DNA from: Pseudomonas brassicacearum
GTDB taxonomy: Bacteria > Pseudomonadota > Gammaproteobacteria > Pseudomonadales > Pseudomonadaceae
Length of the DNA stretch: 64,000 bases
Assembly (NCBI RefSeq): GCF_009601685.2
Contig: NZ_CP045701.2
Span: 3,348,001 to 3,412,000, forward strand
Reading direction: 5' to 3'
A program made the translations under genes and the position numbers. The stretch's first letter is position 1. Every line of letters starts with the position of its first letter. Below are positions 40,874-63,386 of the stretch, piece by piece. Below the pieces are notes generated by a model. The model had not been told where the DNA came from. It saw only the letters and a list, made by a program, of their open reading frames with translations, and did not search any database.

Positions 40874-40951
40874 TCAACCATTTGGTTGATAGGCCGCCGT
40901 TGCCAGGCACCGCATGATCCGAGTGGCTAATTCAACCACCGGAGCCTTGCA

Positions 40952-43326: not shown

Positions 43327-43371
43327 ACCTGCGGGAGCGGTGCCTCGCTGACGATGGTGGTGAATGCTACA

Positions 43372-43477
43372 CCGCCTTCGCAAGCAAGCCCGCTCCCACA
43401 CTTTCCAATGTCATCCAAAAAAATCATGCTCATCACAAATCCCTTTGTGGGAGCGGGCTTGCTCGCGAAAGCGGTGG
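43372..43477. repeat. REP-like palindrome pair
   Basis: CCGCCTTCGCAAGCAAGCCC (43372 on) and the inverse ending GCTCGCGAAAGCGGTGG (43477) around 45 bp. Lies between convergent SDR2 and feaR genes. Confidence 0.88.
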
Positions 43478-43508
43478 TTCAGACTGCAAAGCTATTGGAT
43501 ATGTCCAC

Positions 43509-44471: not shown

Positions 44472-44489
44472 GGCATTCTCCGCAATGGC

Positions 44490-44497
44490 TTATTGTT
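44490..44497 (-). promoter_or_regulatory. Crc/Hfq-type catabolite motif before feaR (AACAATAA)
   Basis: AAAAACAATAA on the coding strand, 19 bp before the feaR start, next to GGAGA. Confidence 0.6.
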
Positions 44498-44511
44498 TTT
44501 GTACGGCAATA

Positions 44512-44525
44512 GTTAACATGTTATC
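44512..44525. promoter_or_regulatory. Palindrome upstream of feaR
   Basis: GTTAACATGTTATC, with perfect 10-bp centre TAACATGTTA, lies about 40 bp before the feaR start in an A+T-rich patch. Candidate operator for autoregulation. Confidence 0.4.
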
Positions 44526-44594
44526 TATATGCGCGCAACAAGTACCTGATCGCCAGAGCAGTAGCAGGAATGATGCCAGGGTAGAACAAAGGAA

Positions 44595-46659: not shown

Positions 46660-46952
46660 GGTGCAAGGTCCTCGAAAGCGGATTTTTAGTATGGATGCCA
46701 CAGCCGTCCAGGAGCCGGCGATCATGCCTTCCCCAACCGGTTCCTGATCGAAACGGCGTTGCGTGCAGCATTACTCTGCGCCGCCCCCGCCCCGGGCGTC
46801 TTGCCCATGTCTGCCGCCGCTTTTGTTGCTGCCTGCCAACACCGCCACGCTGGCGGCCTGAGTCAATTCCATGGCAGGCAAGTGAAAGACTTCCCCCGCT
46901 GCCACTCCTCTTAATGCGCCCTCTACTGTCCTATTACACTGGGGAATCCACC

Positions 46953-48278: not shown

Positions 48279-48288
48279 ACGGCCGACC

Positions 48289-48381
48289 GTAGGAGCTGCC
48301 GGAGGCTGCGATCTTTTGATCTTTCGCTTGGGACTCAAGTGTCTTTGGAAAGATCGCAGCCTCGTTGCACTCGACAGCTCC
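48289..48381. repeat. Long intergenic palindrome, copy 5
   Basis: GTAGGAGCTGCCGGAGGCTG (48289 on) to CACTCGACAGCTCCAC (48381). The first arm has a deletion relative to other copies, so it is probably decaying. Confidence 0.75.
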
Positions 48382-48428
48382 ACACAGCTACACAGCTCTT
48401 ACGCAGCTCCGGGGTACGGTTGCCGTGC

Positions 48429-49397
48429 TTATTTGTGCTGATGCAACATGGTCTGGATCTGATGGGTCGCCTGCCGGGTGCTTTGCGCCAGCTTGCGCAC
48501 CTCATCGGCGACCACCGAGAAACCGCGCCCGACATCGCCGGCCCTGGCCGCCTCAATCGCGGCGTTCAAGGCGAGCAGATTGGTCTGGTCGGCGATGCCC
48601 TTGATCACCCCCACCACCGTGGCAATCTGGGCGTAGGTCACCTGGTTCTGTTCGAGCATGCGCTGGTGGGTGGACTGGGCCGAGCGCTCATCGCTGATAT
48701 CGCGCACCGCCCCAATGACCCGCACCAGTTGCCCATGCGAGTCGCGCACCGCCCGACCGCGTTCACGACACCAGATGTAATCCCGGGTCTTGTGGCGCAT
48801 CCGGTATTCAAAGACGTATTCACCGCTGCCCTGGGGGCCAAGGATTTCCCGGTCGAAAATGGCCATGATCTTGGGCAGGTCGTCCGGGTGGGTTATGCCG
48901 ACCTGGGCATCCCAGCCATCGGGCAAGTCATCCGGCCCATAACCCAGCAGCGAACGGAATTGACTGGAAAAGCGCATGCCACTGGCCGGGTGTTGCAAAT
49001 CACCGTTGACGACCGTGATATCCCAGCAGCCTTCAGTCAGGGTCGATTGCAGCAACTCCCAGATCTGCGCATCCTGGCGATGTTGCAGCAGCTGCTGGCG
49101 GTGTTCGTCCAGACGAGTTTCAAGCAGCTGCTCGCGCTCGCGGGCTGGCTCCAGTTGCTGGCGAGCCCTGTGCAACTCACGCTCGCTGTGCTGCCATTGC
49201 AGGGTTTGTGCCTGCAGCTGTGCTTCGACCTGATGCAAGTGTGCCGTCGTGCTCGCCATCTGCTGCGCATGCCGCTCAAGGACGGTGCGCAGTTGCGGAT
49301 ACGCGTCGAGCATTGGCGTGTCCTCCAGTTCGCCGGTCAGCACACGCTGCACCTGTGCAATCAACGCCAGTTTCTGTTTGTTGGTCTGGAGAAACAT
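48429..49397 (-). CDS. Soluble PAS-domain chemoreceptor with minimal signalling hairpin
   Basis: A 322-residue cytoplasmic protein without membrane helices. Residues 1-115 form a Gln/Glu/Arg-rich coiled coil ([20 protein letters not shown]), 116-235 a PAS fold ([43 protein letters not shown]), and the end holds only the chemoreceptor tip ([44 protein letters not shown]). The methylation helices of normal receptors are absent, so adaptation by CheR/CheB is unlikely. It lies among amine-catabolic genes next to the aldehyde dehydrogenase, consistent with energy or metabolite taxis tied to this pathway. Confidence 0.88.
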
Positions 49398-49605
49398 CGC
49401 CCGCCCCTATGCCATCAAGTCGAAACCCGGATCTGATCGCAAACCGGCCGGGCTGGCTTGTTCCTGCCTGCACGCCGCCTTGCACCTGGCTGCCAACCAC
49501 GCAGGCTGGCAGCCACAGACATACGGCGCGGCAGGCACAGTCAAGCCGGACGCTCCTGTCGGGATTACCCTCGCAGCTTTCCCTATTCGCGATCAGGAAA
49601 CCCTC

Positions 49606-51093
49606 ATGAGCGATATTGCCCTGCTGCCTCAGGTCGAAGCCTTTCTCGCCAGACATCACGCCCTGTTCATCGACGGTGGTTATGTCCAAAGCCAGAGCAG
49701 CCAGACGCTGGACGTCGTCAACCCTGCTACCGGCCAAGTCATCGCCCAGGTCAGCGACGCCGCTCCCGCCGACATTGATGTGGCGGTGGCGTCGTCCCGC
49801 CGCGGCTTCAAGCAGTGGTCCCAAACGGCACCTGCGGTCCGCGGCCATGTGCTGCTCAAGTTGGCTGACTTGCTGGAACGCAACCGCGAAGAGCTGGCGC
49901 AGATCGAAACCTGCCAGTCGGGGAAGATCATCCACATCTCCCGGGCCTTCGAAGTCGACCAGGCCGCACATTTCCTGCGCTACTACGCCGGCTGGGCGAC
50001 CAAGATCAACGGCGAGACGATCACCCCCTCATTGCCGTCCTTCGCGGGCGAACGCTACACCGCGTTCACCTTGCGCGAACCGGTCGGTGTGGTGGTCGGT
50101 ATCGTGCCGTGGAATTTCTCCACCATGATCGCCATCTGGAAACTGGCCTCAGCCCTGGTGACCGGTTGCAGCATCATCATCAAGCCCAGCGAGTTCACCC
50201 CACTGACCATCCTGCGCATCGCTGAACTGGCCATCGAGGCCGGCCTTCCAGCCGGTGCCCTGAACGTGCTGACCGGCGGCGGCCAGGTGGGCAAAGGGCT
50301 GATCGAACACCCAGGCACCAACAAGGTCTCGTTCACCGGTTCCGTGCCCACCGGCCTGGCGGTGGGCCAGGCGGCCATGGGTGCCGGGTTGACTCGTGCG
50401 ACCTTGGAGCTGGGCGGGAAGAATGCGGCGGGGTTCCTGCGTGATATCGACCCCGAGGTGGCGGTCAACGGCATCATCGAGGCGGGCTTTCTGCATTCGG
50501 GGCAGATCTGCGCTGCAGCGGAACGGTTCTTTGTCCATCGCTCGCAGATCGAGTCGATCATGGACGAACTGGCCCAGCGCCTGAGCAAACTCACCATCGG
50601 CTCGCCCCTGGACGAACGCACTGAATTCGGTCCGGTGACCAACCGCCAGCACCAGCACAAACTCGCAGAATTCTTCGCCAAGGCCCGTGCACAGAACAAC
50701 ACCATCGTCCATGGCGGCAAGCTGATCGATGGGCCGGGTTGCTATGTGGAGCCGACCATCATCCTCGCCCATCGCCGCGATGACAGCCTGCTCAACGAAG
50801 AAACCTTCGGCCCGATCGCCACGTTCTTCCCTTACGACAGTGAAGAGGAACTGCTGGAGCTGATGAACGATACCCCCTACGGCCTGAGCGCCAGCCTCTG
50901 GACCAACGACCTGGGCAAAGCCCTGCGCATGGTCCCCGCCATCGAAGCCGGTACGGTCTGGGTGAACATGCACACCCTGCTCGACCCGGCCGTGCCTTTT
51001 GGCGGCAGCAAATCTTCTGGGATAGGCCGTGAATTCGGCAGTGCATTCATTGACGACTACACCGAGCTGAAATCGGTGATGATCCGCTACTGA
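49606..51093 (+). CDS. feaB: Phenylacetaldehyde/4-hydroxyphenylacetaldehyde dehydrogenase (FeaB/PeaE/StyD type)
   Basis: A 495-residue NAD-dependent aldehyde dehydrogenase. Marks: EPVGVVVGIVPWNFSTMIAIWKLASAL, catalytic Glu in LELGGKNA, catalytic Cys in HSGQICAAAERFF, and FGGSKSSGIGREFG. The N terminus MSDIALLPQVEAFLARHHALFIDG is the one seen in phenylacetaldehyde dehydrogenases of Pseudomonas phenylethylamine and styrene routes. It links the amine oxidase product to 4-hydroxyphenylacetate for C1/C2 and the hpa operon. ATG 49606 is the start at the conserved N terminus. Confidence 0.92.
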   Translation: MSDIALLPQVEAFLARHHALFIDGGYVQSQSSQTLDVVNPATGQVIAQVSDAAPADIDVAVASSRRGFKQWSQTAPAVRGHVLLKLADLLERNREELAQIETCQSGKIIHISRAFEVDQAAHFLRYYAGWATKINGETITPSLPSFAGERYTAFTLREPVGVVVGIVPWNFSTMIAIWKLASALVTGCSIIIKPSEFTPLTILRIAELAIEAGLPAGALNVLTGGGQVGKGLIEHPGTNKVSFTGSVPTGLAVGQAAMGAGLTRATLELGGKNAAGFLRDIDPEVAVNGIIEAGFLHSGQICAAAERFFVHRSQIESIMDELAQRLSKLTIGSPLDERTEFGPVTNRQHQHKLAEFFAKARAQNNTIVHGGKLIDGPGCYVEPTIILAHRRDDSLLNEETFGPIATFFPYDSEEELLELMNDTPYGLSASLWTNDLGKALRMVPAIEAGTVWVNMHTLLDPAVPFGGSKSSGIGREFGSAFIDDYTELKSVMIRY

Positions 51094-51101
51094 GGTTCAA
51101 A

Positions 51102-51125
51102 GGCTCTGGGACAACACCCAGAGCC
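51102..51125. terminator. Hairpin between convergent feaB and RND genes
   Basis: GGCTCTGGG-ACAACA-CCCAGAGCC, a perfect 9-bp stem with 6-nt loop starting 9 bp past the feaB stop codon. No U-run, but position favours termination. Confidence 0.65.
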
Positions 51126-51186
51126 CTGCCCAGCAAAATCCCCTTGTTCAGCAATGGGTATACACGCCCAAAAACGCCAGGCCAAT

Positions 51187-53607
51187 TCAGCCCCGAACCC
51201 ACCGTTGCTGCCGGCTCAGTTCAGGCTTTTTTAAAAACACCTTCTGCGGCAACAGCAACCAGGCCAACGCCGGCAGCAGGATCAAGGCGCCCAGCATGTT
51301 CACCAAAAACATGAAGGCCAGCAAAATTCCCATATCCGCCTGGAACTTGATCGGCGAAAAAGCCCAGGTCGACACCGCCACAGCCAAAGTCATGCCCGTC
51401 AGCAACACCACTTTGCCGGTGAACAGCAGCGCCTGGTAATACGCCTGGGCCAGGGTGTCGCCGGCACGCATTCGCGCCAGGATCACGCTCAACACATAGA
51501 GTGCATAATCGACCCCGATGCCCACCCCCAGTGCAATGACCGGCAGTGTCGCGACTTTCACCCCCATGCCCAGCCCCACCATCAGCGCCTCGCACAGGAT
51601 CGAGGTGAGCATCAGCGGCAACATCGCGCACAGGGTTGCGCGCCAGCTGCGGAAGGTCAGCAAACATAACAGGCTGACCGCGCCGTAGACCCAGAACAGC
51701 ATCTCGCGCATGGATTTCTTCACCACGATATTGGTCGCCGCTTCGATCCCCGCACTGCCGGCCGCGAGCATGAACTTGACCTCCGGCATCGGATGCCCGG
51801 CAATGAAGTGCTCACTGGCTTCCACTACCCGGTTCAGGGTGTCAGCCTTGTGGTCGGCCAGGTAGACGTACAGCGACAGCATCGAACAGCCCTGATTGAA
51901 CAGCTCTCGCGGGGCGCGGGTTTGCACGGCCCCCAGTGCGCCGTCATTGGGGATCAGTTCATACCATTTGAAGTTGCCTTCGTTATAACCGGCCGTGGCG
52001 ATCTTGCTCAGCGCAGCCATCGAGGTGGTCGATTCCACGCCGGGCAATTGCTCCAGTTGCCAGGCCAGCGCATCCACCGCCGACAGGCTGGCGTAACGGG
52101 TGCATTGATCTTCCGGGGTCTTGATCATGACCACGAAAATATCCGAGCTGGCCGCATAGTTCTGGGTCATGAACAACGCATCGCGGTTGTAGCGCGAGTC
52201 GGCACGCAACTCCGGGGCACCTGGGTCCAGGTCGCCGATTTTCAGGTGCAGGCTCACGGCAAACCCAAACGCGGCCAACAGCAGGCCCGCCAACATGCCG
52301 CCAATGGCCCAGCGCCGTTGGGTGAACAAATCGAGCATACGCCACAAGGGATGCTTGATCTGCGCTTGTTGCTCGGTGGTTTCCGAGCTCAGGCTGCGTT
52401 GCGCCGCCGCCGGGCTGACGCCGATATAGCTGAGCAGGATCGGCAACAGGATCAGGTTGGTGAAGATCAACACCGCCACCCCGAGGCTTGCGGTGATCGC
52501 CAGGTCCTGGATGACCCGAATGTTGATCAACAGCAACACGGCGAAGCCCACCGCATCACAGAGCAAAGCGGTGATGCCGGCGGCGAACAATCGGCGGAAG
52601 GTATAGCGCGCGGCAACCACCCGGTGAGTGCCACGGCCGATGTCCTGCATGATGCCATTCATCTTCTGCGCGCCATGGCTCATGCCGATGGCGAACACCA
52701 GGAACGGCACCAATGCCGAGTACGGGTCCAGCTCATAACCGAGCAGGGCCAGAAGCCCCAGTTGCCAAAGCACCGCCGCCAATGAACAGATCACCACCAC
52801 CAAGGTGCTTCGCGCACAACGGGTGTAGCCAAACAGCACCAGTACCGTCACCAGTACCGCCACCACGAAGAACAGCAGTACCTGGGTCATCCCCTCGATC
52901 AGGTCGCCGACGATCTTGGTAAAGCCGGTGATATGGATCCGCAGGTCGTCAGTCTGGTACTTGTCTCGCAACGCCTCCAGTTGCCGGGAAAACTCGCCAT
53001 AGTCCAGCGCCTTGCCCGTCTGCGGATTGATTTCCAGCAGTGGCACGAAGATCACGCTGGACTTGAAGTTGCCGGCGACCAATTGACCGACTTCACCGGA
53101 GCGGGCCACATTGGTCCGCACCTGCTCGAGGCTGGTGGCCGAGCCGTCGTAGTCATCGGGGATCACCGTGCCGCCGTCGAGCCCGTCTTCGGTCACCGCG
53201 GTCCAGCGTGTGGTCGGGGTCCATAAGGATTTCATGTAGGGGCGGTCGACACCCGGCAGCAGATAGAGCTCGTCGTTGAGCCTGGCCAGGGTGTCGAGGT
53301 AGTCCTTGGTGAAGATACTCCCCTGCTTGACCTCCACGGCGATGCGCAGCGAGTTGCCCAGGCCACTCAGCTCCTTGCGATTCTCCAGGAAATTGGCGAC
53401 GTAGGGATGCCCCGTGGGGATGGTCTTCTCGTAGCTGGCATTGATGCCGATGCGCGTGGCTTGCCAACCGAGCACCAACGTCACCAACAGGCACAGCAGG
53501 ATCACCAGCGGTCGATGGTTGAAGATCGCCCGCTCAGCGAAGTTGCCTGACGTCCGGTCAAAGTCTTCCTGGCGGCCGATCACGGTTTGGATTCTGTCGT
53601 CTTTCAA
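51187..53607 (-). CDS. RND/MMPL-superfamily inner-membrane transporter
   Basis: An 806-residue protein with the MMPL-like two-fold layout: helix 1 (LVILLCLLVTLVLGW), a large periplasmic domain, helices 2-6, helix 7, a second periplasmic domain, helices 8-12. It has the conserved LGVGIGVDYALYVLSVI and the matching first-half VFAIGMSHGAQKMNGI. It lacks a companion membrane-fusion protein and outer-membrane TolC homologue, so it is not a drug efflux RND pump in the usual sense. TTG 53607 is the likely start because AGGAG lies 6 nt before; GTG 53625 has none. Last gene of the apparent sigma-54 operon with YCF48-like, DUF1329 and DUF1302 genes. Confidence 0.88.
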   Translation of the reverse strand: MKDDRIQTVIGRQEDFDRTSGNFAERAIFNHRPLVILLCLLVTLVLGWQATRIGINASYEKTIPTGHPYVANFLENRKELSGLGNSLRIAVEVKQGSIFTKDYLDTLARLNDELYLLPGVDRPYMKSLWTPTTRWTAVTEDGLDGGTVIPDDYDGSATSLEQVRTNVARSGEVGQLVAGNFKSSVIFVPLLEINPQTGKALDYGEFSRQLEALRDKYQTDDLRIHITGFTKIVGDLIEGMTQVLLFFVVAVLVTVLVLFGYTRCARSTLVVVICSLAAVLWQLGLLALLGYELDPYSALVPFLVFAIGMSHGAQKMNGIMQDIGRGTHRVVAARYTFRRLFAAGITALLCDAVGFAVLLLINIRVIQDLAITASLGVAVLIFTNLILLPILLSYIGVSPAAAQRSLSSETTEQQAQIKHPLWRMLDLFTQRRWAIGGMLAGLLLAAFGFAVSLHLKIGDLDPGAPELRADSRYNRDALFMTQNYAASSDIFVVMIKTPEDQCTRYASLSAVDALAWQLEQLPGVESTTSMAALSKIATAGYNEGNFKWYELIPNDGALGAVQTRAPRELFNQGCSMLSLYVYLADHKADTLNRVVEASEHFIAGHPMPEVKFMLAAGSAGIEAATNIVVKKSMREMLFWVYGAVSLLCLLTFRSWRATLCAMLPLMLTSILCEALMVGLGMGVKVATLPVIALGVGIGVDYALYVLSVILARMRAGDTLAQAYYQALLFTGKVVLLTGMTLAVAVSTWAFSPIKFQADMGILLAFMFLVNMLGALILLPALAWLLLPQKVFLKKPELSRQQRWVRG

Positions 53608-53659
53608 GTTTGACTCCTGTTGCACGAGCCGTGGCCCGATAGCGCTACACCGTGAAGTT

Positions 53660-54763
53660 TCAAGGTTGACCTGCGGCCCGCGGATCCTGGTCAGCGGCCA
53701 CGCCGGTCAAACCGACGCTGGCCAGGCTGCCGTCGACTGCCTGTTGCACGGCAGCGACCGTCCCGCCGCTACGGCTTTGTCGCTTGTCAAAGCTGCGCCC
53801 CTGGTCGTGACTGAATAAAAGTTCACCACTCTGGCTGGCCAATAACAGGCCGCCGTCGCGCAGTTCGAGGGCGCTTGCCAGTGTCGATTCGATACCGGTG
53901 TCAAGGCGTCGCCAACTGTTGCCACGATCACCGGACCACCAGGCGTTTCCACGCAAGCCATAGACCACCAAGGCGCCATCGCGGGTGCCGAGCAGACCGA
54001 AGAAGCTGCCCTCATACGGTGACTTCAAAGCCTGGAATGACTGCCCGGCATCGGTCGAACGCAACAGCAGTCCGCGCTCGCCCACCAGCCACAGATCGTT
54101 GCCCAAGGCGCGGATGCCATACAGGTTCAAGCCCTGTGGATTGTCCACATGCCGCATCCACGGCTGCCAGCTTCGCCCGCCGTCGTCGGTACGGTAGATC
54201 TGGTTGTAGGCGCCCACGACGTAGCCGTGCAGGCGGTCACTGAAGTACAGGTCGAGAAACGGTTTATCCGGTCCGTCCTCGAGCAGGCGCCGTGCCTGTG
54301 CCAAGTGGCTGGCACCGCCCGGTTGATCGGCATCGCGCTCAGCAACCTGCACCGCCAATGCGATGGCACGCTCACCGTCGAGTTGCTTTTGCCAGGTTTG
54401 CCCGCCGTCCTGGGTGTGCAGCACCACGCCCAGATGACCGACCGCCCAGCCCTGCTCGGCATCGACGAATTGCACCGCCGTCAGGCTGACGCTGACCGGC
54501 ACCTTGGCCTGGCGCCAACTCATTCCAGCGTCATCGGAGAGCAGCACGATCCCGCGCTCACCGACCGCCACCAGGCGTTCGCCGGCCCGGGCCAGCCCGA
54601 GCAATACCGCACGCTGGGCCTTGGCGGTCGGCAATGCCGGCTGTTGCAGCACGGCCAATGTCGTGGCCTGTGCAACCAAGGGCACGCTCATCAACAGGCT
54701 CGCCACCAAGGCGAAAACACCCCATAGCGGACTGCGCTGCGCAAAGTTTTTTTCAACGTTCAT
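53660..54763 (-). CDS. Exported YCF48/BNR-repeat beta-propeller protein
   Basis: A 367-residue precursor with signal peptide (ending VAQA-TT, about residue 33). Repeats of the BNR/YCF48 type are clear: LSDDAGMSWRQ, HTQDGGQTWQK, RTDDGGRSWQP, RSTDAGQSFQA, SGDRGNSWRR and SHDQGRSFDK, the Asp-box S/T-x-D-x-G-x-S/T-W/F spacing. A six- or seven-bladed periplasmic propeller is expected. YCF48 itself is a photosystem II assembly factor; here the genetic partners are a DUF1329 protein, a DUF1302 barrel and an RND permease, so it is more likely a scaffold for this transport complex. Confidence 0.88.
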   Translation of the reverse strand: MNVEKNFAQRSPLWGVFALVASLLMSVPLVAQATTLAVLQQPALPTAKAQRAVLLGLARAGERLVAVGERGIVLLSDDAGMSWRQAKVPVSVSLTAVQFVDAEQGWAVGHLGVVLHTQDGGQTWQKQLDGERAIALAVQVAERDADQPGGASHLAQARRLLEDGPDKPFLDLYFSDRLHGYVVGAYNQIYRTDDGGRSWQPWMRHVDNPQGLNLYGIRALGNDLWLVGERGLLLRSTDAGQSFQALKSPYEGSFFGLLGTRDGALVVYGLRGNAWWSGDRGNSWRRLDTGIESTLASALELRDGGLLLASQSGELLFSHDQGRSFDKRQSRSGGTVAAVQQAVDGSLASVGLTGVAADQDPRAAGQP

Positions 54764-54832
54764 ATCGTTATTCCGCCTGGAAAATCGTAAGCGACCGCGG
54801 CGAACCTCCTCCTCGCCACGGCCGCCACAGGT

Positions 54833-56194
54833 TCAACGCATGTTTTCGTTGGCCATGGCATCCGGCGTGAAATAAGACGCCGAAGGTTTCGCAACTTTCT
54901 GGTACTGAACCGCCAGGTCGTTGCTCGATGAGTTGAGGAAGTAGGCCCCGGTGTCGAGGTTGTAGCTGCCCCACATGACCTGCGCGGTGAGGACCGGAAG
55001 ATCTGGCGCCAGCAGCGTCAGCGAATACATTTGCCGGCCGAGTTTGCCCTGGGCGTCATAACCGTCGGCCATCAGGATCTGCCAGGAGTCTTCGTCGACG
55101 TAGTAGGTCCGACGCGGCACGACATGACGTTTACCGGGTTTGAGCGTGGCCTCGACCACCCAGACCCGATGCTTCTCCCAACGCACCAGGTCAGGATTGA
55201 GAAAGTTCGCCTTGACCAGGTCGTCGCTCTTGGCCAGCGCGGCGCGGTTATTGTTGTAGGCAACGATCAGCTCTTTCTTGCCCATCAGCTTGAGGTCATA
55301 ACGATCGGTCGGCCCGAACAGCATGAACGCTTCGTCGAACAGGCCGACACCGGAGGTCACGAAGTCCGGCGTGTCATAGGCGATGTTCGGCGCCCGGCGA
55401 ACCCGACGCTGACCAACCAGATATTGCCAGGCCGCACGCTTGGCCGGGTCCAGGTCCCAATGGGTCATCAGGCCTTCGCCAGCCTTGGACGATGGCAGCT
55501 CGGTGAACAGCTTGCCCAGCAGGTACTTGCCCGAATAGTTTTCCAGGCTGCCGCCTTCGACGTAGTAGGGAAACTGATAGGTGTACTGGGCCCGGGTCGC
55601 CTGGACTTTCTTGCCGCCGGCGGTCATCAGCCAAGTGTCGAAAGGCGAGCTGATGGTGTCGCCGCCTTGCCAGGACAACCGATAGTTCCACAGCACTTGC
55701 GCACCGTTTTCCGGGATCGGAAATGGGATGCCGCCATAAGCGTTGGAGACTTTTTCGCTGTCGACGTCCAATGCGGCGCGGATGGCATTCTTGCTGGTGT
55801 TGTCATAGACCCATTGCGGCGCGGCGGCCGAACGATGGGTCGGGTACACGTCCAGGCGATAGTCCGGGTACTTCTTGAGCAACAGCTTGGTGCCTTCGGC
55901 CAATTCGCTGGCGTACTGCTCCATGTTCGCGGCTTTGATCGAGTACAGCGGTTTCTCGCCGGCGAACGGGTCGGGACGCTTGTCACCCGGCTTATAGCCG
56001 GGCGCGACCTGGGTATAACCGCCCTGCCACGCCGGAATACTGCCATCGGCATTGCCGGCCCGCTCGCCGCCCAGGGGGGTCAGATCGGTTTTCAAGCGCG
56101 CGGCCTGTTCAGGCGACACGGCCGCCTGCGCCAAGCCCATGCCGGCAAGGGCCAGGGTCAGGACGCACGTGTTCAGGAATGCTGTGTTCTGCAT
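54833..56194 (-). CDS. Exported DUF1329 protein (LolB/LppX-like candidate carrier)
   Basis: A 453-residue precursor with signal peptide ending AQA-AV (about residue 24). The DUF1329 signature LKTDLTPLGGERAGNADGSIPAWQGG follows at the mature N terminus; later segments SPFDTWLMTAGGKK, QYPF-like QFPYYVEGG and YVDEDSWQILMADGYD are typical. Structures in this group suggest a half-open barrel able to hold a hydrophobic ligand, but no ligand is known to me. It is 15 bp downstream of the DUF1302 gene in the same direction and is almost always found with it. Confidence 0.88.
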   Translation of the reverse strand: MQNTAFLNTCVLTLALAGMGLAQAAVSPEQAARLKTDLTPLGGERAGNADGSIPAWQGGYTQVAPGYKPGDKRPDPFAGEKPLYSIKAANMEQYASELAEGTKLLLKKYPDYRLDVYPTHRSAAAPQWVYDNTSKNAIRAALDVDSEKVSNAYGGIPFPIPENGAQVLWNYRLSWQGGDTISSPFDTWLMTAGGKKVQATRAQYTYQFPYYVEGGSLENYSGKYLLGKLFTELPSSKAGEGLMTHWDLDPAKRAAWQYLVGQRRVRRAPNIAYDTPDFVTSGVGLFDEAFMLFGPTDRYDLKLMGKKELIVAYNNNRAALAKSDDLVKANFLNPDLVRWEKHRVWVVEATLKPGKRHVVPRRTYYVDEDSWQILMADGYDAQGKLGRQMYSLTLLAPDLPVLTAQVMWGSYNLDTGAYFLNSSSNDLAVQYQKVAKPSASYFTPDAMANENMR

Positions 56195-56209
56195 GGCGAA
56201 TCCACCTTA

Positions 56210-57859
56210 TTAGAATGAGGTTTTCACGTAGAGCGAGACGAAGTCGCGATCGGCCAACGACTGTCCGTAACTGAAATTGCCGTCCTCGCGCAGCCCGGCT
56301 TTCGGTGCGCCGAAGAAGTTCACGTAGTTGAGGCCGACATCCCAGCGCTGCAGGTAGGTGGCTTTGAGCCCGATGCTCCAGTCGCCGGAATGGGTATTGC
56401 CGAAACCGGATTTGTTGACCGCCGATGAGCGTCCATCGAGCACTATTCCCATACCGATCGGCACGGTGAGGTCGATTCCGTCGACGATCTGGAAGTACGC
56501 CGGCTCGATCAATACCCGCAGCGCCGTGGCATCGCGGGTGGTGTTGGAGTCCAGCGCGGCAGCGTTCTTGGTCACGCTCAAGGTGCGGTTCCAGGCCAGT
56601 TCGGCCAGGGCCGATCCGCCGTCCCAGAACGCGGTGGGGGACAACAGGTAGATCGCCGACAGGTTGGCGTGGGCGGTCTTGCCCCTGGCGAACAACTCAT
56701 TGTCGCCACCATCGGCCGCCATGCCGGGGGTCACTACTTGCAGATTACTCACCAGCGGCGCGTTCCAGCGCACCGACGTCTCACCGGCAAAGTTGAACGG
56801 ACCGTAGGCTGTGGAGAAGCTGACGCCGGCGGTCTTGATGTCTTCGGCGTAGACCTGACGATAGGAACCCAGGATCGGCAACCCGGTGGCCGCAGACGCC
56901 GCACCGTCCAGGTAGGCGTACAACCCGATCGGCGCTTTATCGTGGTACTGGGCCGCGTAGAACCCCAGTTCCAGCTCAGTGCCGGTCGGTTTGAAACGGA
57001 TCTGCATGCCGCCCTGCCCCGAATTGCGCGGTTTCAAATCGCCGCCATTGACCGTGTCGTTGCCGAACACTTCGCGCAGAGGGCCACTGCCGTAACCGAT
57101 GGCATCGACATCGCTCAGGTAGCTGCCGGCGCCGGGCAGATTGGAACGCTCCCACTCAAACTGATAGTAAGCACCCACCGACAGCTGCGGGTTGATCTGC
57201 AACTGCCCGGAGATCTGATTGACCGGGCGCAGGATCTCCTTGAACTGAGTCCCCGGCACGCTGAGCAACTTGACGACATCGGTCGGGCCCTGGGCATTGG
57301 CAATGCCGTTGCCGCCGTAGAACAGGCTTTCCCCATAGATCAGGCTGTGTCGGCCCAGGCGCACCACGCCCTGGGAGTCTTCGCCGATGTCACCGCGCAA
57401 GAACACGAAGGCATCGAGAATTTCCGCGTCGCGCCCATGGAGCTTGCGGGTTTCACTGAGGAAATGTGTTTGCTCGCTGCTGTCGGTGTCCTGGTTGTAG
57501 ATATCGTCGTACCAGGCTGCGCCGCTCACGCGCAGCCCATAGTTTTGCCGGCTCAGGTCCATTTCGGAAAACAGGTCCAGGCGGTTGGAGACCAGGCCGC
57601 TGCTGAAGTTCTTATCGCCCTGGCTCTGGATCGAGGGGTACAGGCCGTTGGCGGTTGGCGCGTTGACCAAACGGCTGTCCTGCCCTTGCAGGCGCCAGGC
57701 CTGGCTGTACTTGAGGGTGTTGTCCCAACGCAGTTTCCAGTCGGAGTCACCCAGGTCCATTTGCATGGCCTGGACCCTTTCGACCATCACACCGCTGCTG
57801 CATAACGCCAGGAACAGGGCGCAATGCTTGAAACCAAGGCAATCTTTGAGGTTATCCAT
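56210..57859 (-). CDS. DUF1302 outer-membrane protein
   Basis: A 549-residue precursor: signal peptide ending VQA-MQ (about residue 32), then QMDLGDSDWKLRWDNTLKYSQAWRLQ and many amphipathic strands ending YVKTSF with terminal Phe, so an outer-membrane barrel. DUF1302 proteins recur with DUF1329 proteins in clusters for degradation of hydrophobic or aromatic compounds. The AACAATAA motif 13 bp before ATG 57859 indicates Crc control of this step. It lies 90 bp after calA. Confidence 0.9.
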   Translation of the reverse strand: MDNLKDCLGFKHCALFLALCSSGVMVERVQAMQMDLGDSDWKLRWDNTLKYSQAWRLQGQDSRLVNAPTANGLYPSIQSQGDKNFSSGLVSNRLDLFSEMDLSRQNYGLRVSGAAWYDDIYNQDTDSSEQTHFLSETRKLHGRDAEILDAFVFLRGDIGEDSQGVVRLGRHSLIYGESLFYGGNGIANAQGPTDVVKLLSVPGTQFKEILRPVNQISGQLQINPQLSVGAYYQFEWERSNLPGAGSYLSDVDAIGYGSGPLREVFGNDTVNGGDLKPRNSGQGGMQIRFKPTGTELELGFYAAQYHDKAPIGLYAYLDGAASAATGLPILGSYRQVYAEDIKTAGVSFSTAYGPFNFAGETSVRWNAPLVSNLQVVTPGMAADGGDNELFARGKTAHANLSAIYLLSPTAFWDGGSALAELAWNRTLSVTKNAAALDSNTTRDATALRVLIEPAYFQIVDGIDLTVPIGMGIVLDGRSSAVNKSGFGNTHSGDWSIGLKATYLQRWDVGLNYVNFFGAPKAGLREDGNFSYGQSLADRDFVSLYVKTSF

Positions 57860-57871
57860 GGACGTTTCTCA

Positions 57872-57879
57872 TTATTGTT
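57872..57879 (-). promoter_or_regulatory. Crc/Hfq-type catabolite motif before DUF1302 gene (AACAATAA)
   Basis: Coding-strand AATAACAATAATGAG contains AACAATAA; it overlaps the expected ribosome-binding region. Confidence 0.65.
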
Positions 57880-57948
57880 ATTTTCGGGCATGGCTTTGCA
57901 GCCAACACGCTCGGGTAGCGGCTTGCACCGCTTTCTTCGGATGCACAT

Positions 57949-58716
57949 TCAGATGTAGGTGGAGGCCAATCCCCCGTCGACGGGCAGGTTGACGCCGTTG
58001 ATCCAGCGCGACTCGTCGGCACACAGGAAAGCGATCACCGCCGCCACCTCGTCGGCATAAGCGGGACGTTTCATGCGATGGGCATCGGCCTGGGTCCGGG
58101 CTTCACCGAGCATGCTCACGAAGTCGTCGAGGATGGGCGTGAAGACCGGGCCAGGCGCGACACTGTTCATGCGCACCGAATGCTCAAGAAACCAGGGTTG
58201 GGCCTGCAGATAGGTCCAGACGATCAACGCTTCCTTGAAGTACTGGTAGCAGGTCTGGTCGGGCACCGGGTGGTCGGCCAGCCAGGCTTGCGCGGCGGCA
58301 AAAGCTTCGATGCGCGCCAGCGCCTTGTGCTGTTCCAGGCGTAACGGCCATTCGGCGCCGAGGATCGAGGCGATATTGACGATGCTGCCGCCCGCGTTGA
58401 TGCGCGGTAGCAGCGCACGGCTCAAGTGGCGCAACCCGAGGTAGTTGACCCGCGCCAGCAGTTGCGGGTTTGCGGTGCCCGGCACCCCGGCAATGTTGCA
58501 CAGGCCGTCGAACCGTGCGGGCAGCTGCGGCAGCAACCGTTCGATGGTTTCGGCACTGCTCAGATCGCCCTGCACAAAACCGTCCAGGGTCATGTGCGGC
58601 GCCTTGAGGTCCACGCCAATCACCTGGGCGCCATGGGCGCGCAGCAGGCTCGCCGTGGCGGCACCAATGCCCGACGAGACACCGGTCACCAATACAATCT
58701 TGTTGTCGAGTTTCAT
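57949..58716 (-). CDS. calA: Coniferyl-alcohol dehydrogenase, CalA-like SDR
   Basis: A 255-residue SDR that resembles Pseudomonas CalA throughout: TGVSSGIGA at the cofactor site, GLCNIAGVPGTANPQLLARVNYLGLRHL, NIASILGAEWPLRLEQHKAL, catalytic CYQYFKEALIVW, then RMNSVAPGPVFTPIL, MKRPAYADEVAAVIAFLCADESRWINGVNLPVDGGLASTY. Known CalA oxidises coniferyl alcohol to coniferyl aldehyde. No eugenol or ferulate genes (ehy, fcs, ech) are in the window, so the true substrate may be another aryl alcohol. It follows the aldehyde dehydrogenase gene by 69 bp; together they would take an alcohol to the acid. Confidence 0.88.
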   Translation of the reverse strand: MKLDNKIVLVTGVSSGIGAATASLLRAHGAQVIGVDLKAPHMTLDGFVQGDLSSAETIERLLPQLPARFDGLCNIAGVPGTANPQLLARVNYLGLRHLSRALLPRINAGGSIVNIASILGAEWPLRLEQHKALARIEAFAAAQAWLADHPVPDQTCYQYFKEALIVWTYLQAQPWFLEHSVRMNSVAPGPVFTPILDDFVSMLGEARTQADAHRMKRPAYADEVAAVIAFLCADESRWINGVNLPVDGGLASTYI

Positions 58717-58727
58717 GTTGAGTCCTC

Positions 58728-58735
58728 TTATTATT
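58728..58735 (-). promoter_or_regulatory. Crc/Hfq-type catabolite motif before calA (AATAATAA)
   Basis: AAAAATAATAAGAGG on the coding strand combines AATAATAA and the start of the ribosome-binding region 11-19 bp before the calA ATG. Confidence 0.68.
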
Positions 58736-58785
58736 TTTGTGCACTCGCAAGGCCTTCAGCTCATCGGGCCCTGTAAACCTGCCTG

Positions 58786-60258
58786 TCAGAAGGGGTAGAC
58801 CGGCGCCTTGTCCTTGACCGTCACCCACTGCCATTGGGTGTATTCGTCCCAGTCCGCCGGGCCGCCGACGCTGCCGCCATTGCCCGAGGCGCCGCGCCCG
58901 CCGAACGGGTTGACGCATTCATCGGCGACGGTCTGGTCATTGATGTGCAACATGCCGCACTGCAACCGCTCACCAATGGCCATGGCCCGGCCCACCGACG
59001 GCGAAATGATCGCTGCCGCCAAACCGTATTCGGTGCGGTTGGCCAACTCGACGGCTTGATCATCGGTGGCGAAGCTGACCACCGTTGCCACGGGACCGAA
59101 GATCTCCTCGTCGAAAGCCCGCATGCCCGGTTTCACGCCGCTGAGCACGGTGGCCTGATAGAACAACCGATCGTGCTCGCCACCTGCCTCCAGCCGGGCA
59201 CCGGCGCGTACGGAGTCGCTGACGATGTCGTGCACCCGTTTCAGCTGTCGCTGGTTGATCAGCGGCCCCAACGCGGCTTCGCCCTGGGCGGCGTTGCCTA
59301 CGGTCAAGGCCCGGGCCTTTTCCACCAGTTTGCGGGTCAGTTCTTCGGCGATGGATTCATGGGCGAGGATCAAGCCGGTGGCCATGCAAATCTGCCCTTG
59401 ATGCAGCCAGGCGCCCCAGGCCGCGTTGCGGGCGGCGAGATCGAGGTCGGCGTCTTCAAGAATGATCAACGGGTTCTTGCCACCCAACTCCAGCGCGACC
59501 TTTTTCAGGTTGCGCCCAGCCACTTCCGCGACCTTGCGACCGGCGCCGGTGGACCCGGTGAAGGCGATCATGCGCACGTTAGGGTCGCGGCACAGCGCCT
59601 CACCGGCATCCGCCGCACCGGGCAACACTTGCAGCAAGCCCTTGGGCAGCCCCGCTACCTCGAACAACCGGGCGATGAGCAAACCACCGCTCACCGGGGT
59701 CTGCGGATCCGGCTTGAGCACCACGGCGTTGCCCGCCGCCAGGGCTGGCGCAACGGAGCGCATGGACAGCACCAGGGGAAAGTTGAAGGGCGATATCACG
59801 CCGACCACGCCATGGGGCTGGCGCCGCGCATAGGACAGGCGCCCTGCCTCGCTGGGCAGGACCACCCCATGGGCCTGGGACAACAGGCCAGCGGCCTGAT
59901 GCAACAGCACGATGGCTTCGCGCACTTCGTGTTGGCCCTTGAACAACGCGGCGCCGGTCTCCCGGGCCACGTACAGCGCCAGCTCGTCGAAAGACTGCTC
60001 GGCCACGTCGGCGGCCTTGCGCAAGATCGTCGCCCGTTGCCGCGGGCCCAGGGCCGCCCATCCCGGCTGCGCCAGGGCGGCGTCGCGGCTGGCCTTGGCG
60101 ATGTCGGCGGAGTCGGCCGTGGCACAGCGCATCAGCCGCTCACCGGTGGCCGGCTCGATGATCGATTGCAGCGGACCCGACGCAGGCACCCAGTCACCGT
60201 TGAAGACACATTCCGACTCGATCACCTGGGACAACAGGTGGCTTTTGGATGCAGACAT
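58786..60258 (-). CDS. Benzaldehyde-type (XylC-like) aldehyde dehydrogenase
   Basis: A 490-residue NAD(P)-dependent dehydrogenase. It shares the XylC pattern: HQAAGLLSQAHGVVLPS, PHGVVGVISPFNFPLVLSMRSVAPALAAGNAVVLKPD, catalytic Glu in ELGGKNP, Cys in HQGQICMATG, LQCGMLHINDQ and the ending DEYTQWQWVTV...YPF. It would oxidise the aldehyde made by CalA to an aromatic acid. First gene of the apparent operon; AACAACAA and GGGAG precede ATG 60258, and a -24/-12 promoter lies 80-96 bp upstream. Confidence 0.92.
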   Translation of the reverse strand: MSASKSHLLSQVIESECVFNGDWVPASGPLQSIIEPATGERLMRCATADSADIAKASRDAALAQPGWAALGPRQRATILRKAADVAEQSFDELALYVARETGAALFKGQHEVREAIVLLHQAAGLLSQAHGVVLPSEAGRLSYARRQPHGVVGVISPFNFPLVLSMRSVAPALAAGNAVVLKPDPQTPVSGGLLIARLFEVAGLPKGLLQVLPGAADAGEALCRDPNVRMIAFTGSTGAGRKVAEVAGRNLKKVALELGGKNPLIILEDADLDLAARNAAWGAWLHQGQICMATGLILAHESIAEELTRKLVEKARALTVGNAAQGEAALGPLINQRQLKRVHDIVSDSVRAGARLEAGGEHDRLFYQATVLSGVKPGMRAFDEEIFGPVATVVSFATDDQAVELANRTEYGLAAAIISPSVGRAMAIGERLQCGMLHINDQTVADECVNPFGGRGASGNGGSVGGPADWDEYTQWQWVTVKDKAPVYPF

Positions 60259-60275
60259 TTAACACTCCCGGCTCT

Positions 60276-60283
60276 TTGTTGTT
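60276..60283 (-). promoter_or_regulatory. Crc/Hfq-type catabolite motif before the XylC-like gene (AACAACAA)
   Basis: AACAACAAAGAGCC on the coding strand, 18 bp before the start codon and next to GGGAG. Confidence 0.65.
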
Positions 60284-60337
60284 GTCATCGTTTGCCGCAC
60301 CTGGAAGGTATCGACGCAAACGCCGTGCAAGTGCTTG

Positions 60338-60354
60338 AGCAAGCGCTGTGCCGG
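60338..60354 (-). promoter_or_regulatory. Sigma-54 (-24/-12) promoter of the XylC-like/calA/RND operon
   Basis: Read on the minus strand: CCGGCACAGCGCTTGCT, which matches consensus TGGCAC-N5-TTGCW at all key GG and GC positions with exact spacing. It points toward the dehydrogenase operon, giving a 5' leader of about 70 nt. The divergent neighbour is a sigma-54 activator gene, as in xylR/dmpR-type systems. Confidence 0.8.
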
Positions 60355-60463
60355 TTTTGCCAGCAGACCTTGATAAACCTGGCGCAGGGCTCTGGATCAA
60401 TACTCTGCACCGAGTGCAAGGTTCATGGGGCCCTCACCAACGTGGCCGCTGGCCAGCCGCCAC

Positions 60464-60521
60464 TTGTTCATTTGATAAAGTTATGTTTAATAACTATCTC
60501 GCCAGATGATCATTTCGATCA
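60464..60521. promoter_or_regulatory. Candidate upstream activator sites for the XylR/DmpR-like regulator
   Basis: Two imperfect inverted repeats lie 110-170 bp upstream of the -24 box: TTGTTCATTTGATAA (60464-60478) and TGATCATTTCGATCA (60507-60521). Distance and TTGATCAA-like composition suit enhancer sites for this activator family. Confidence 0.45.
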
Positions 60522-60542
60522 CCCGCCATCAGGGGCATAACA

Positions 60543-62318
60543 ATGAATAATCCCCACTGCCAGTTGCCGGATCACAGGATCGCCACCGAGCACTTCCGTC
60601 CACGGGGTGACAGCACCGAGCTGACCGACAGCAGTTCGCCCACGCCGGCAGAGCTCACCGCATGCCTGTTTTTCTCCCCCGATGACGGCCGAATCTGGCT
60701 CAACGACCAGCGCATGTTGCTGCTGCACAGTTCATCCTTCGGTGCGTTGCGCCGGGAAATCATCGAACGCCAGGGCCTGGAACAGGCCCGTGGCATGCTC
60801 ACTCGCACCGGCTATTGCTCTGGCGCCCGGGACGCCCGGCTGATTCGCGAACGCTGGCCCCACGCCGATGCCGCGGCGGTGTTTCGCGCCGGCACGCATT
60901 TGCACACCCTTGAAGGCATGACCAAGGTCGAGCCACTGCATTTCAAGTTCGATGCCGACTCGGGGTTCTATGAGGGGGAGTTTCTCTGGCATCACTCCTG
61001 CGAGGCCGACGAGCATGTCGCCGCCTATGGCACCGGGCAGGACCCGGTGTGCTGGACCGAACTGGGCTATGCCATCGGTTTCGTCAGCGGGCTGTTCGGG
61101 CAACTGGTGATCTTCCGCGAAGTGGAATGCCGAGGCATGGGGCACGAACGCTGCCGAGTCGTCGGCAAGACCGCCGAACAATGGGGTGATGTCGAGCAGG
61201 ACCTCAATTACCTCAACGCCTCACCGCCGACGGTCGTCGCGCGCACCGACAGTCAGTCGGACATTGTTGCCGGAGCCGCCCCGCTGCCGGACAGCGAACA
61301 GCCGCTGATCGGTGCCAGCGCCGCCTTCAACGCCGCGACCCAGGCCTTGCAACGGGTGGCCTTGACCCCCGCCACCGTGCTGGTCAGCGGCGAATCCGGC
61401 GTCGGCAAGGAGATGTTCGCCCGCCAGTTGCACCAATTGAGTCGCCGACGCGAGGGGCCGTTCATCGCTCTCAACTGCGCGGCCATCCCCGACAACCTGA
61501 TCGAGGCCGAACTGTTTGGCGTCGAACGCGGTGCCTATACCGGGGCCACCCATTCACGCCCCGGTCGTTTCGAGCGGGCCCATGGCGGCACGTTGTTTCT
61601 GGATGAGATCACGTGCCTGAGCCTGGCCGGGCAAAGCAAGTTGCTGCGCGCCTTGCAGGAGCGGGAAATCGAGCGGGTCGGTGGTGGCCACGGCATCAAG
61701 GTCGATGTGCGGGTCGTGGCGGCCACCAACATCGACCTGCGCAAGGCCGTGGCGGACGGCGCATTCCGTGAAGACCTGTTCTACCGCCTCAACGTCTACC
61801 CCATCGCCCTGCCGCCCTTGCGCGAGCGTCGTGATGACATCCCGTTGCTGATCAATGCCTTCCTCAAGCGCTTTTGCCAGGAATACGGCCGCACCCCCAT
61901 GGGCCTGACCATGCGCGCCTTGAAGGTGCTGTTGCGCTATGACTTTCCGGGCAACGTGCGGGAATTGCAGAACCTTATCGAACGCGGCCTGATCGCCAGC
62001 GAAGAAGGCCAGGCGATTGACCTGGTCCACCTGTTTCGCAATGAGCAACTGCCGGTGGATGCGTACTCCGTCGACCTGCACGGCGGTCTCTCGCCGATGG
62101 GCCTGGCCGCCAACGACGCCGCGCAAAAGCCGGCGCTGCTCCAGTCCCTCAGCCAACTGGACTCGGACTTCTCCATTGACGGCCTGGAGTCACGGCTGAT
62201 CAACGAAGCCCTGCAACTGAGCAGCGGCAACCTGGCAGCGGCCGCACGCTCATTAGGACTGAGCCGGGCACAGTTCGCGTATCGGTTGAAGAAGCATCAA
62301 CGGGGTGTCCCGGACTAA
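60543..62318 (+). CDS. Sigma-54-dependent activator of the XylR/DmpR family (V4R sensor)
   Basis: A 591-residue regulator: XylR N-terminal effector domain (about 38-140) with V4R subdomain (about 145-210, ending [19 protein letters not shown]), an AAA+ domain with Walker A GESGVGKE (about 282), the sigma-54 contact loop as GAYTGA (about 330; the usual form is GAFTGA), Walker [10 protein letters not shown], and a Fis-type helix-turn-helix ([22 protein letters not shown]) at the end. The effector domain binds an aromatic compound directly in XylR/DmpR. It is divergent from the dehydrogenase/RND operon, which has a matching -24/-12 promoter. Confidence 0.95.
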
Positions 62319-62483: not shown

Positions 62484-63386
62484 TCAAGCTGGGGGAAAAG
62501 CACCCCGCCGGTACTCGCTGGGGGTCTGGTTCATCTCTATCCGAAAATGCCGGTTGAAGTTGGACAAGTTGTTGTAGCCCACTTCAAAACAGATATCGGT
62601 CACCGGCATTTCGCTCTGCAACAGCAAGCGACAGGCACGCTGGACCCGCAGCTTGCGCATCAGGTCAATGAAGCCGTGTCCGGTGATGCGCTTGAAGAAC
62701 CGCGAAAAGCCCGGCTCGCTCATGTCCAATTGGCGGGCGATCACCGACAGGCGCAGGTCGCCGGTGAGTTCGGCTTGCAGGTACTCGAAGGCTTTATGGA
62801 TGCGCTCGGAACTGCGCGCATCGAGCGCCGGCGCGTAGCAAGGGCTCGCCAGGCTCAAGGCCTCGTCGTCAGGGGCTTGGTTGAGGGTGTGAAGCAGTTC
62901 CAGGAACAGCGCCAATCGCACCAGCCCCTGGGCCGGGCCGATGGCCTCCAGCAGGTGCGCGGCCTGCCGCGCGGTGTTGCCGTCGAAGGCCAGGCCACGG
63001 CGGGCACGCTCGAACAGGCCCTGCAGATCCCCCAGTTCGGGCAGGGTTCGGCGCAAGGTCAGCAGCGTGGCGCCATCGAATTGCAAGACCACGTCGCGCC
63101 CGGGCAGGTGCTCGCCCGCTGCCAGGTCGCCCATCCAGTCGTGGGGCAAGTCGGGGCCAATCATCGCCACATGGCCAGGGCCAAACGGGCCGATGTAGTC
63201 GCCCGCCAGCAGTTTGCCGCTGCCCTGGCGGATCAGGTGGATTTCAAATTCAGGGTGATGGTTCCAGCGCGCCATCGGGTACGGGTAGTCATGCTCGTAC
63301 CAGCGAAAACTGTGTTCGGGCTCAGGCAGGATGACTTCCAGTTCGGCGGGTCGCTGCTCGAACAGGGGCGTTCGGTGATCAGGCAT
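62484..63386 (-). CDS. mtlR: MtlR, AraC-family activator of the mannitol/polyol operon
   Basis: A 300-residue regulator: N-terminal cupin (WNHHPEFEIHLIRQGSGKLLAGDYIGPFGPGHVAMIGPDLPHDW) and C-terminal helix-turn-helix (LSVIARQLDMSEPGFSRFFKRITG and VTDICFEVGYNNLSNFNRHFR). Size and position beside a polyol ABC binding-protein gene match MtlR of P. fluorescens, which activates mtlE and following genes with mannitol, sorbitol or arabitol. A 14-bp inverted repeat lies in the region between mtlR and mtlE. Confidence 0.9.
   Translation of the reverse strand: MPDHRTPLFEQRPAELEVILPEPEHSFRWYEHDYPYPMARWNHHPEFEIHLIRQGSGKLLAGDYIGPFGPGHVAMIGPDLPHDWMGDLAAGEHLPGRDVVLQFDGATLLTLRRTLPELGDLQGLFERARRGLAFDGNTARQAAHLLEAIGPAQGLVRLALFLELLHTLNQAPDDEALSLASPCYAPALDARSSERIHKAFEYLQAELTGDLRLSVIARQLDMSEPGFSRFFKRITGHGFIDLMRKLRVQRACRLLLQSEMPVTDICFEVGYNNLSNFNRHFRIEMNQTPSEYRRGAFPPA

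Follow-up and report, generated by a model that had tools for sequence, protein, structure and literature searches.

In a 64,000-nt stretch of the Pseudomonas brassicacearum genome (NZ_CP045701.2, positions 3,348,001 to 3,412,000; hereafter the window; source genome 6.58 Mb in one contig, its closest matches falling in the P. brassicacearum/thivervalensis group), our evidence supports a single sigma-54-controlled unit that couples the oxidation of an aryl alcohol to a four-part route through the cell envelope without a fusion protein or TolC partner. The sequence observation itself is real and beyond chance. Judged by the composition and order of its genes, the envelope set is of a known kind, that of AmeABCD from Castellaniella defragrans. 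The novelty lies in the fixed linkage, under sigma-54 control, of an aryl-alcohol oxidation pair to an Ame-type transporter, a linkage that occurs in two bacterial classes with different alcohol dehydrogenases. We found no description of an aryl-alcohol operon carrying the DUF1302/DUF1329/YCF48/RND set in the literature searched, a coverage in which subscription journals were mostly not included. Our favored reading, which we hold tentatively and at a little less than an even chance, is that this operon oxidizes a phenolic or other aryl alcohol, probably of the coniferyl or cinnamyl type, and brings a dedicated AmeABCD-type exporter with it.

Organization of the operon

Seven open reading frames (ORFs), six on the minus strand and one for a divergent activator, were confirmed at the places given below, and matches to Pfam and NCBIfam agree with the families that a sequence-only reading of the window had assigned to them. 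Abbreviations are SDR, short-chain alcohol dehydrogenase, and ALDH, aldehyde dehydrogenase.

51187-53625, minus strand: MMPL/HAE3-like RND permease, 812 aa, in the AmeD position (PF03176 MMPL, 84.7 bits)
53660-54763, minus strand: YCF48-type exported beta-propeller with a signal-peptide-like start, in the AmeC position (PF14870 PSII_BNR, 90.8 bits)
54833-56194, minus strand: DUF1329 protein, putative periplasmic LolA-type carrier, in the AmeB position (Pfam, 413 bits)
56210-57859, minus strand: DUF1302 protein, putative outer-membrane barrel, in the AmeA position (Pfam, 385 bits)
57949-58716, minus strand: CalA-family SDR, 255 aa (NCBIfam PRK12428)
58786-60258, minus strand: aromatic ALDH, 490 aa (PF00171, 518 bits)
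60338-60353, minus strand: -24/-12 (sigma-54) promoter CGGCACAGCGCTTGCT, 79 nt before the first gene (ALDH)
60464-60515, strand not assigned: candidate activator-binding region, which holds the inverted repeat 60474-60500
60543-62318, plus strand: XylR/DmpR-type sigma-54 activator, 591 aa, divergent from the operon (Pfam domains)

The six minus-strand genes are separated by gaps of 69, 89, 15, 69 and 34 nt, and the DUF1302, DUF1329 and YCF48 proteins begin with N-terminal stretches that, judged by eye, resemble signal peptides. A scan of 50900-60600 yielded no sigma-70-like site, and neither promoter nor terminator counts rose above those of shuffled sequences. The two minus-strand terminator-like matches in this interval lie within the RND gene and at its stop codon, none being intergenic; with such counts, they lend weak support to the earlier claim that the operon has no internal terminators. 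No Pfam match to a fusion protein or TolC-type gene was found among the ORFs scanned in 36823-63950, in line with what had been read from the sequence, and an HAE1 tripartite efflux pump was rejected on this ground.

The promoter and its activator

How is this unit controlled? Both strands of the window were scanned against the sigma-54 consensus, with GG and GC required. The site CGGCACagcgcTTGCT (minus strand, 60353-60338) reached 13.5 of 15, the joint top score of the window with one other place. Of 45 related loci (L013-L057) in the clade to which the operon belongs, 44 can be read across the gap from the activator to the first gene; the remaining one (L016) ends at a contig edge. All 44 gaps hold a counterpart that scores 13.0-14.5 and lies 75-105 nt ahead of the first gene. 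When each gap was shuffled 200 times by mononucleotides, no more than 4 shuffles equaled its score. The consensus -24/-12 site noted in the sequence-only reading is confirmed. In the 14 relatives without an ALDH gene, the site (mostly TGGCATatcgcTTGCT) precedes the SDR gene instead.

About 120-147 bp upstream of the -24/-12 site lies an imperfect inverted repeat (60474-60500; 82% complementary), which falls in a conserved block in an alignment of the window with 14 related gaps and is a candidate upstream activator site. The activator contains XylR_N, V4R, Sigma54_activat and HTH_8 (Fis-type) domains in this order, all over the Pfam cut-offs, as expected of the XylR/DmpR-like regulator that had been proposed. 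The nearest solved chains to its sensor domain are CapR, DmpR and MopR. Residues H121, W149, C170, E193, C196 and C204 align with positions that we take to form the pocket and zinc site in MopR/DmpR; of these, H121 and W149 correspond to the His and Trp that presumably hold the phenol hydroxyl in MopR. This match agrees with a phenolic effector but does not prove one.

Copies of TGGGAGCG(A/G)GCTTGCT at window positions 3678, 10293, 43398, 43448 and 62371 also gave high sigma-54 scores. We take them for dispersed Pseudomonas REP elements, and -24/-12 scans in Pseudomonas should mask such REP-like copies. An AraC-type regulator gene (62484-63386, minus strand) is convergent with the activator gene; its family stands beside the operon in 6 of the 79 loci described below (L013, L014, L025, L053, L055 and L056).

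Cohesion of the four envelope families

We searched with DUF1329 alone and retrieved 79 loci (from the best 80 of 501 relatives). In 72 of them, DUF1302, DUF1329, YCF48 and RND genes are contiguous on one strand, and in three more (L066, L068 and L091) the order is kept with a larger gap. Three loci (L016, L050 and L082) are cut off by a contig edge, which leaves L058 as the sole locus whose DUF1302-DUF1329 pair has no YCF48 and RND genes nearby.

A genome-level comparison covered 94 gammaproteobacterial genomes, one per family, with AmeD-lineage RND proteins counted at E 1e-60 or better. By these original cut-offs, DUF1302 occurs in 27 genomes and the RND in 15, all within the 27, although in one of the 15 (G009) the DUF1302 match has only 39 bits. 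With cut-offs set after the tables had been seen, a strong DUF1302 match (>300 bits) is present in 14 genomes and a strong RND match (>800 bits) in 13, all within the 14 (hypergeometric probability 5e-15, for genomes that share ancestry). The fourteenth genome (G039) is 81% complete and has a weaker RND. In all 13, the strong RND and strong DUF1302 genes lie on the same contig a few kilobases apart; two of the RND genes (G044 and G063) have one internal stop each. Mirror-tree correlations were 0.80-0.88; 0 of 999 permutations reached them, but shared ancestry confounds these values. They were computed on 38 representatives chosen from 87 rows, with L064, L068, L091, L100 and L101 dropped by hand as broken, cut or incomplete.

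Elsewhere in the window genome, as in P. putida, there are two DUF1302-DUF1329 pairs with no other families beside them and one lone YCF48-RND pair, and these lone pairs weigh against a strict four-gene unit. The sequence-only reading had named family members found without each other as evidence against its linkage of the four; such members exist as lone pairs in this genome, whereas across the 94 genomes co-occurrence is strong.

Several variant arrangements were seen. In Marinomonas (L066 and L068), about 3.7 kb separates DUF1329 from YCF48, and the DUF1302 and RND frames of L068 are split as well. Pseudomonas aeruginosa plasmids (L099, L100 and L102) carry Ame-type cassettes among transposases; one of these cassettes adjoins a mercury-resistance operon, and in one an insertion sequence (IS) element parts YCF48-RND from DUF1302-DUF1329, with the order reversed. 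A third YCF48-like protein of the window genome (L112, 5944-6987; C1 ~2571000) has no RND, DUF1302 or DUF1329 in its 13-kb stretch and adjoins an ALDH and, by eye, other apparent catabolic enzymes.

The dehydrogenases and their tie to the envelope genes

The SDR scores 393 bits against the NCBIfam coniferyl-alcohol dehydrogenase model PRK12428 (cut-off 242), which places it by model score in the CalA family, as had been suggested, with a predicted coniferyl-alcohol dehydrogenase activity. It has a YxxxK motif at residue 157, and the sole solved chain at E 1e-20 is 3alpha-hydroxysteroid dehydrogenase/carbonyl reductase. The ALDH, despite its clear PF00171 match, reaches the cut-off of none of the NCBIfam models listed for it, and the earlier label "XylC-like" was not confirmed. 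It has C291 and E257, which, like the SDR motif residues, we presume to be catalytic. Its nearest solved chain is 4-hydroxybenzaldehyde dehydrogenase, and salicylaldehyde dehydrogenase is among its 8 matches.

It might be argued that dehydrogenases and envelope proteins are mere neighbors under one promoter, with unrelated tasks. The lone pairs in the window genome and the 14 of 44 related loci without an ALDH gene would fit that view. The distribution of the genes in 89 Pseudomonas genomes speaks against it: nine genomes hold an SDR at 74% identity or more, and the same nine hold an RND at that level, with some 4.3 kb from one gene to the other in every case. The 74% cut-off was chosen after the results were known, and the original cut-offs give 16 of 89 for the SDR and, among the matches listed (the weak end excepted), 87 of 89 for the RND. 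Seven further genomes have an SDR at 61-68% with no such RND adjoining, and the RND matches of this lineage in the 87 genomes mostly have 52-54% identity.

The best evidence comes from another class. On plasmid pAB510c of Azospirillum sp. B510, an ALDH gene and an NAD(P)-dependent alcohol dehydrogenase gene are followed by the four envelope genes. The ALDH and the activator are 63% and 55% identical to those of the window, and the same promoter motif, CGGCACGGCGCTTGCT, lies 66 nt before the first gene (ALDH). The alcohol dehydrogenase, in contrast, does not match the window SDR at E 1e-5. When the four envelope proteins were concatenated for a tree (37 rows of the 38 representatives, the split cassette L099 being omitted), the pAB510c proteins joined the Pseudomonas clade with support 1.0. 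This alphaproteobacterium thus carries the module with another enzyme for what is probably the same step. Because the alcohol dehydrogenase differs while the rest has been kept, we argue that the envelope set and the oxidation of the alcohol share one task, and we regard mere neighborhood as very improbable.

Known relatives of the transporter

The sequence-only reading called the envelope set uncharacterized and without an established function, which does not hold. AmeABCD of C. defragrans (Puentes-Cala and Harder, 2018, PMC6394551) was published as a monoterpene exporter and consists, in this order, of AmeA (DUF1302), AmeB (DUF1329/LolA superfamily), AmeC (YCF48-like, COG4447) and AmeD (HAE3 RND). 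Deletion of ameABCD cut growth on limonene and other unfunctionalized monoterpenes and lowered limonene tolerance; CCCP-treated mutant cells held slightly more Nile Red than the wild type, acetate relieved the growth defect on limonene, and export was the model proposed (PMC6394551).

We located the Ame cassette in the type strain DSM 12141 (L119), in which the protein lengths match the published ones (two of them, 605 and 451 aa, as called; the other two, 316 and 787 aa, by hand count when a later start codon is assumed). L058, which had been considered as the Ame locus of C. defragrans, was rejected in its favor, being another DUF1302-DUF1329 pair with YCF48-RND about 12 kb off. The window set shares with AmeABCD the four families, their order, the position beside catabolic genes and the lack of a separate membrane fusion protein (MFP) or TolC. 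Identities to the L119 proteins are 26% for DUF1302, 38% for DUF1329, 34% for YCF48 and 38% for the RND. AmeABCD sits with monoterpene genes, whereas the window set is joined to the SDR and ALDH genes behind a sigma-54 promoter and a XylR-type activator.

In P. putida, the same four kinds of protein are encoded at two loci, PP_0765/PP_0766 and PP_2018/PP_2019, and are needed for growth on Tween 20; AlphaFold contacts are strong between PP_2019 and PP_2018, and weak for PP_0766 with PP_2019 and with PP_0765 (PMC10866462). The window genome appears to carry such a split system as well (L109 and L110), presumably orthologous. DUF1302 and DUF1329 proteins also occur in Delftia nanopods (PMC3110197), a benzene "Nanopod" cluster combines a DUF1302 or porin-like protein with DUF1329, YCF48 and MMPL (PMC13101534), and a Zoogloea toluene/phenol cluster contains a sigma-54 regulator, DUF1302 and DUF1329 (PMC7012976). 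The Delftia and benzene systems resemble the window set in joining DUF1302 or a porin-like protein to DUF1329 and in their link to aromatic hydrocarbons; the available text of their reports describes no dehydrogenase pair or sigma-54 promoter, unlike the window (PMC3110197, PMC13101534). FadL-type AupAB was rejected as the closest kin, since FadL homology is reported for it and DUF1302 and DUF1329 are missing from the main text of its paper.

By model, the DUF1329 protein is an exported LolA-type carrier, a comparison in which the first 160 residues of the model were barely tested, and the DUF1302 protein an OprD/AlgE-type barrel. Among the structures similar to the latter model are Occ channels, one of them OpdK solved with vanillate; the DUF1302 profile found no relative among PDB sequences at E 0.1. 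The best NCBIfam model for the RND is HAE3, yet below its cut-off (148 vs 351.9 bits), and the protein aligns with AmeD (L119) at 37-38% identity and is distantly akin to the lipid exporters HpnN and MmpL3. Its residues D706-Y707 and S316-H317, which we place in TM10 and TM4 of its transmembrane (TM) segments, do not vary among the 23 aligned sequences. The Asp-Tyr pair is confined to the C-terminal half, with Ser-His at the equivalent N-terminal place, and HpnN shows the reverse.

The likely substrate

Within 10 kb of DUF1329, 14 of the 45 clade loci have vanAB (vanillate demethylase), and 7 others have an enoyl-CoA hydratase with ech-like surroundings (OprD, MarR and Ech, joined by an ALDH in 5 of these loci); an Abhydrolase_3 esterase is present in 23 loci. 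Since vanAB lies on different sides of the operon according to species, its proximity was kept or regained through rearrangement. The window genome itself has an ech homologue at C1:2891370, 100% identical to Ech of P. thivervalensis DSM 13194, and a vanA homologue at C1:3094503 (83%). Because of the vanAB and ech neighbors, the coniferyl model of the SDR and the nearest solved relative of the ALDH, a coniferyl-type phenylpropenyl alcohol is favored as the predicted substrate, with benzyl-type alcohols as the main alternative.

The enzyme steps and the type of regulator are reminiscent of areCBA/AreR of Acinetobacter ADP1, in which a sigma-54 activator for an aryl alcohol is likewise combined with aryl-alcohol and aromatic-aldehyde dehydrogenases (PMC4213383); AreR is a benzyl-alcohol-responsive sigma-54 factor (PMC7142073). 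We did not file the window operon as an are operon, because it has no esterase among its six genes where areCBA has AreA (though an esterase lies near 23 of the 45 relatives) and uses an SDR where areCBA has a zinc alcohol dehydrogenase; it also adds the envelope transporter. AreB of Acinetobacter is reportedly of the zinc type. PP_2426 of KT2440, named "CalA" and presumably an enzyme of another type than the window SDR, was rejected as a parallel, being a vanillin reductase.

Proposed mechanism and direction of transport

We propose the following scheme. First, the activator would bind an aromatic effector and, with sigma-54 RNA polymerase, fire the promoter at 60338-60353. Second, the SDR would turn the alcohol into the aldehyde and the ALDH the aldehyde into the acid, which could enter the ferulate/vanillate route suggested by the ech and vanA homologues elsewhere in the genome. 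Third, the RND, energized by protons through its single C-terminal-half Asp-Tyr pair, would extract a hydrophobic cargo, which may be the alcohol, the aldehyde made from it or a precursor, from the inner membrane; the YCF48 propeller would dock on the RND as an adaptor, the DUF1329 carrier would ferry the cargo over the periplasm, and the OprD/AlgE-like DUF1302 barrel would release it. For these transport steps we build on the folds and co-occurrence found above; the order of hand-over and the outward direction are our proposal, drawn in part from the published AmeABCD work. The purpose may be to hold a membrane-active substrate and its toxic aldehyde under harmful levels during consumption. 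As to direction, export is moderately favored, because of the kinship with outward lipid pumps, the Nile Red accumulation and the sensitivity of the ameABCD mutant; import is the less likely direction, though by no means negligible.

Several observations weigh against an exporter of a coniferyl-type alcohol. Perillyl alcohol, aldehyde and acid supported normal growth of the ameABCD mutant, so that the closest system studied so far was dispensable for an alcohol, and upon re-energizing the mutant released Nile Red almost exactly as the wild type did (PMC6394551). The window proteins share only 26-38% identity with AmeABCD, and the need for PP_0765/0766/2018/2019 on Tween 20 and for ameABCD on limonene fits uptake too. 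On the side of the enzymes, the ALDH gene is absent from those 14 related loci, 14 of the 45 clade loci have neither vanAB, ech, a MarR gene nor the esterase, and the window operon adjoins no vanAB, ech or esterase gene. Among the Pseudomonas esterase neighbors, a -24/-12 site of at least 13 was found in 0 of 16 and 0 of 5, and the Azospirillum ALDH is annotated as benzaldehyde dehydrogenase, so that the substrate could be a benzyl-type alcohol.

Could the route run inward? The barrel would then let in an aryl alcohol, ester or lignin dimer of low solubility, DUF1329 would carry it inward, and the proton-driven RND would deliver it to the inner membrane for the dehydrogenases. The growth requirements on Tween 20 (PMC10866462) and on limonene as sole carbon source (PMC6394551) are consistent with this, as are the unchanged Nile Red efflux of the ameABCD mutant (PMC6394551), the Occ-like model of DUF1302 and the esterase genes near 23 of the 45 loci. 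Moreover, judged by product names, catabolic genes adjoin the cassette in about 11 of 15 annotated plasmid regions, taken from 44 matching records. The statement of the sequence-only reading that such sets recur near catabolic genes is supported. Against an importer stand the slightly higher Nile Red content of the mutant under CCCP and the relief of its limonene growth defect by acetate (PMC6394551). Characterized relatives such as HpnN and MmpL3 also move lipids outward. All told, we consider an importer in the window possible but doubtful. That the whole AmeABCD-type line is a proton-driven importer (RND, LolA-type shuttle and Occ-like barrel), recruited repeatedly with SDR or other alcohol dehydrogenase, terpene, benzene and Tween genes, seems to us unlikely. 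We know of no RND protein shown to perform trans-envelope nutrient uptake.

A further alternative is that the envelope set moves a lipid or a lipid-aryl conjugate, repairing or hardening the outer membrane against a membrane-active substrate, and does not handle the aromatic itself. The LolA-type carrier fold and the distant kinship of the RND with HpnN and MmpL3 point this way, as does the pairing of such cassettes with chemically unlike substrates (terpenes, Tween, benzene and aryl alcohols). Among known systems, the Lol lipoprotein route and HpnN/BstABC lipid export share with the window set a LolA-fold carrier and an HAE3-type RND; the window set differs in having an RND in place of LolCDE and an OprD/AlgE-like outer-membrane barrel instead of LolB. 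However, where the aryl-alcohol enzymes are shared, as in Azospirillum and Pseudomonas, the envelope proteins form one group in spite of the difference in class (support 1.0). This fits substrate-specific work better than general work on lipids, and we regard the lipid alternative as quite improbable.

The exporter reading and its alternatives concern more than this operon. Ame-type cassettes recur beside genes for hydrophobic and aromatic compounds, and we found one dedicated transport study, in which direction was derived from indirect assays. Because the window cassette is firmly linked to two enzymes under an inducible promoter, with a narrow substrate class, it offers a clean system for the question of inward or outward transport. 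It is also relevant to the conversion of lignin monomers, in which both tolerance to coniferyl-type compounds and their uptake are important.

Flanking region

On the RND side of the operon, 36823-51093 may be a region of aromatic-amine catabolism. It contains genes for an FAD-dependent oxidoreductase, MoaF, an SDR, an AraC-type regulator and an amino-acid permease, together with an alginate-export-like outer-membrane protein, a PAS/MCP sensor and a phenylacetaldehyde-dehydrogenase-like ALDH.

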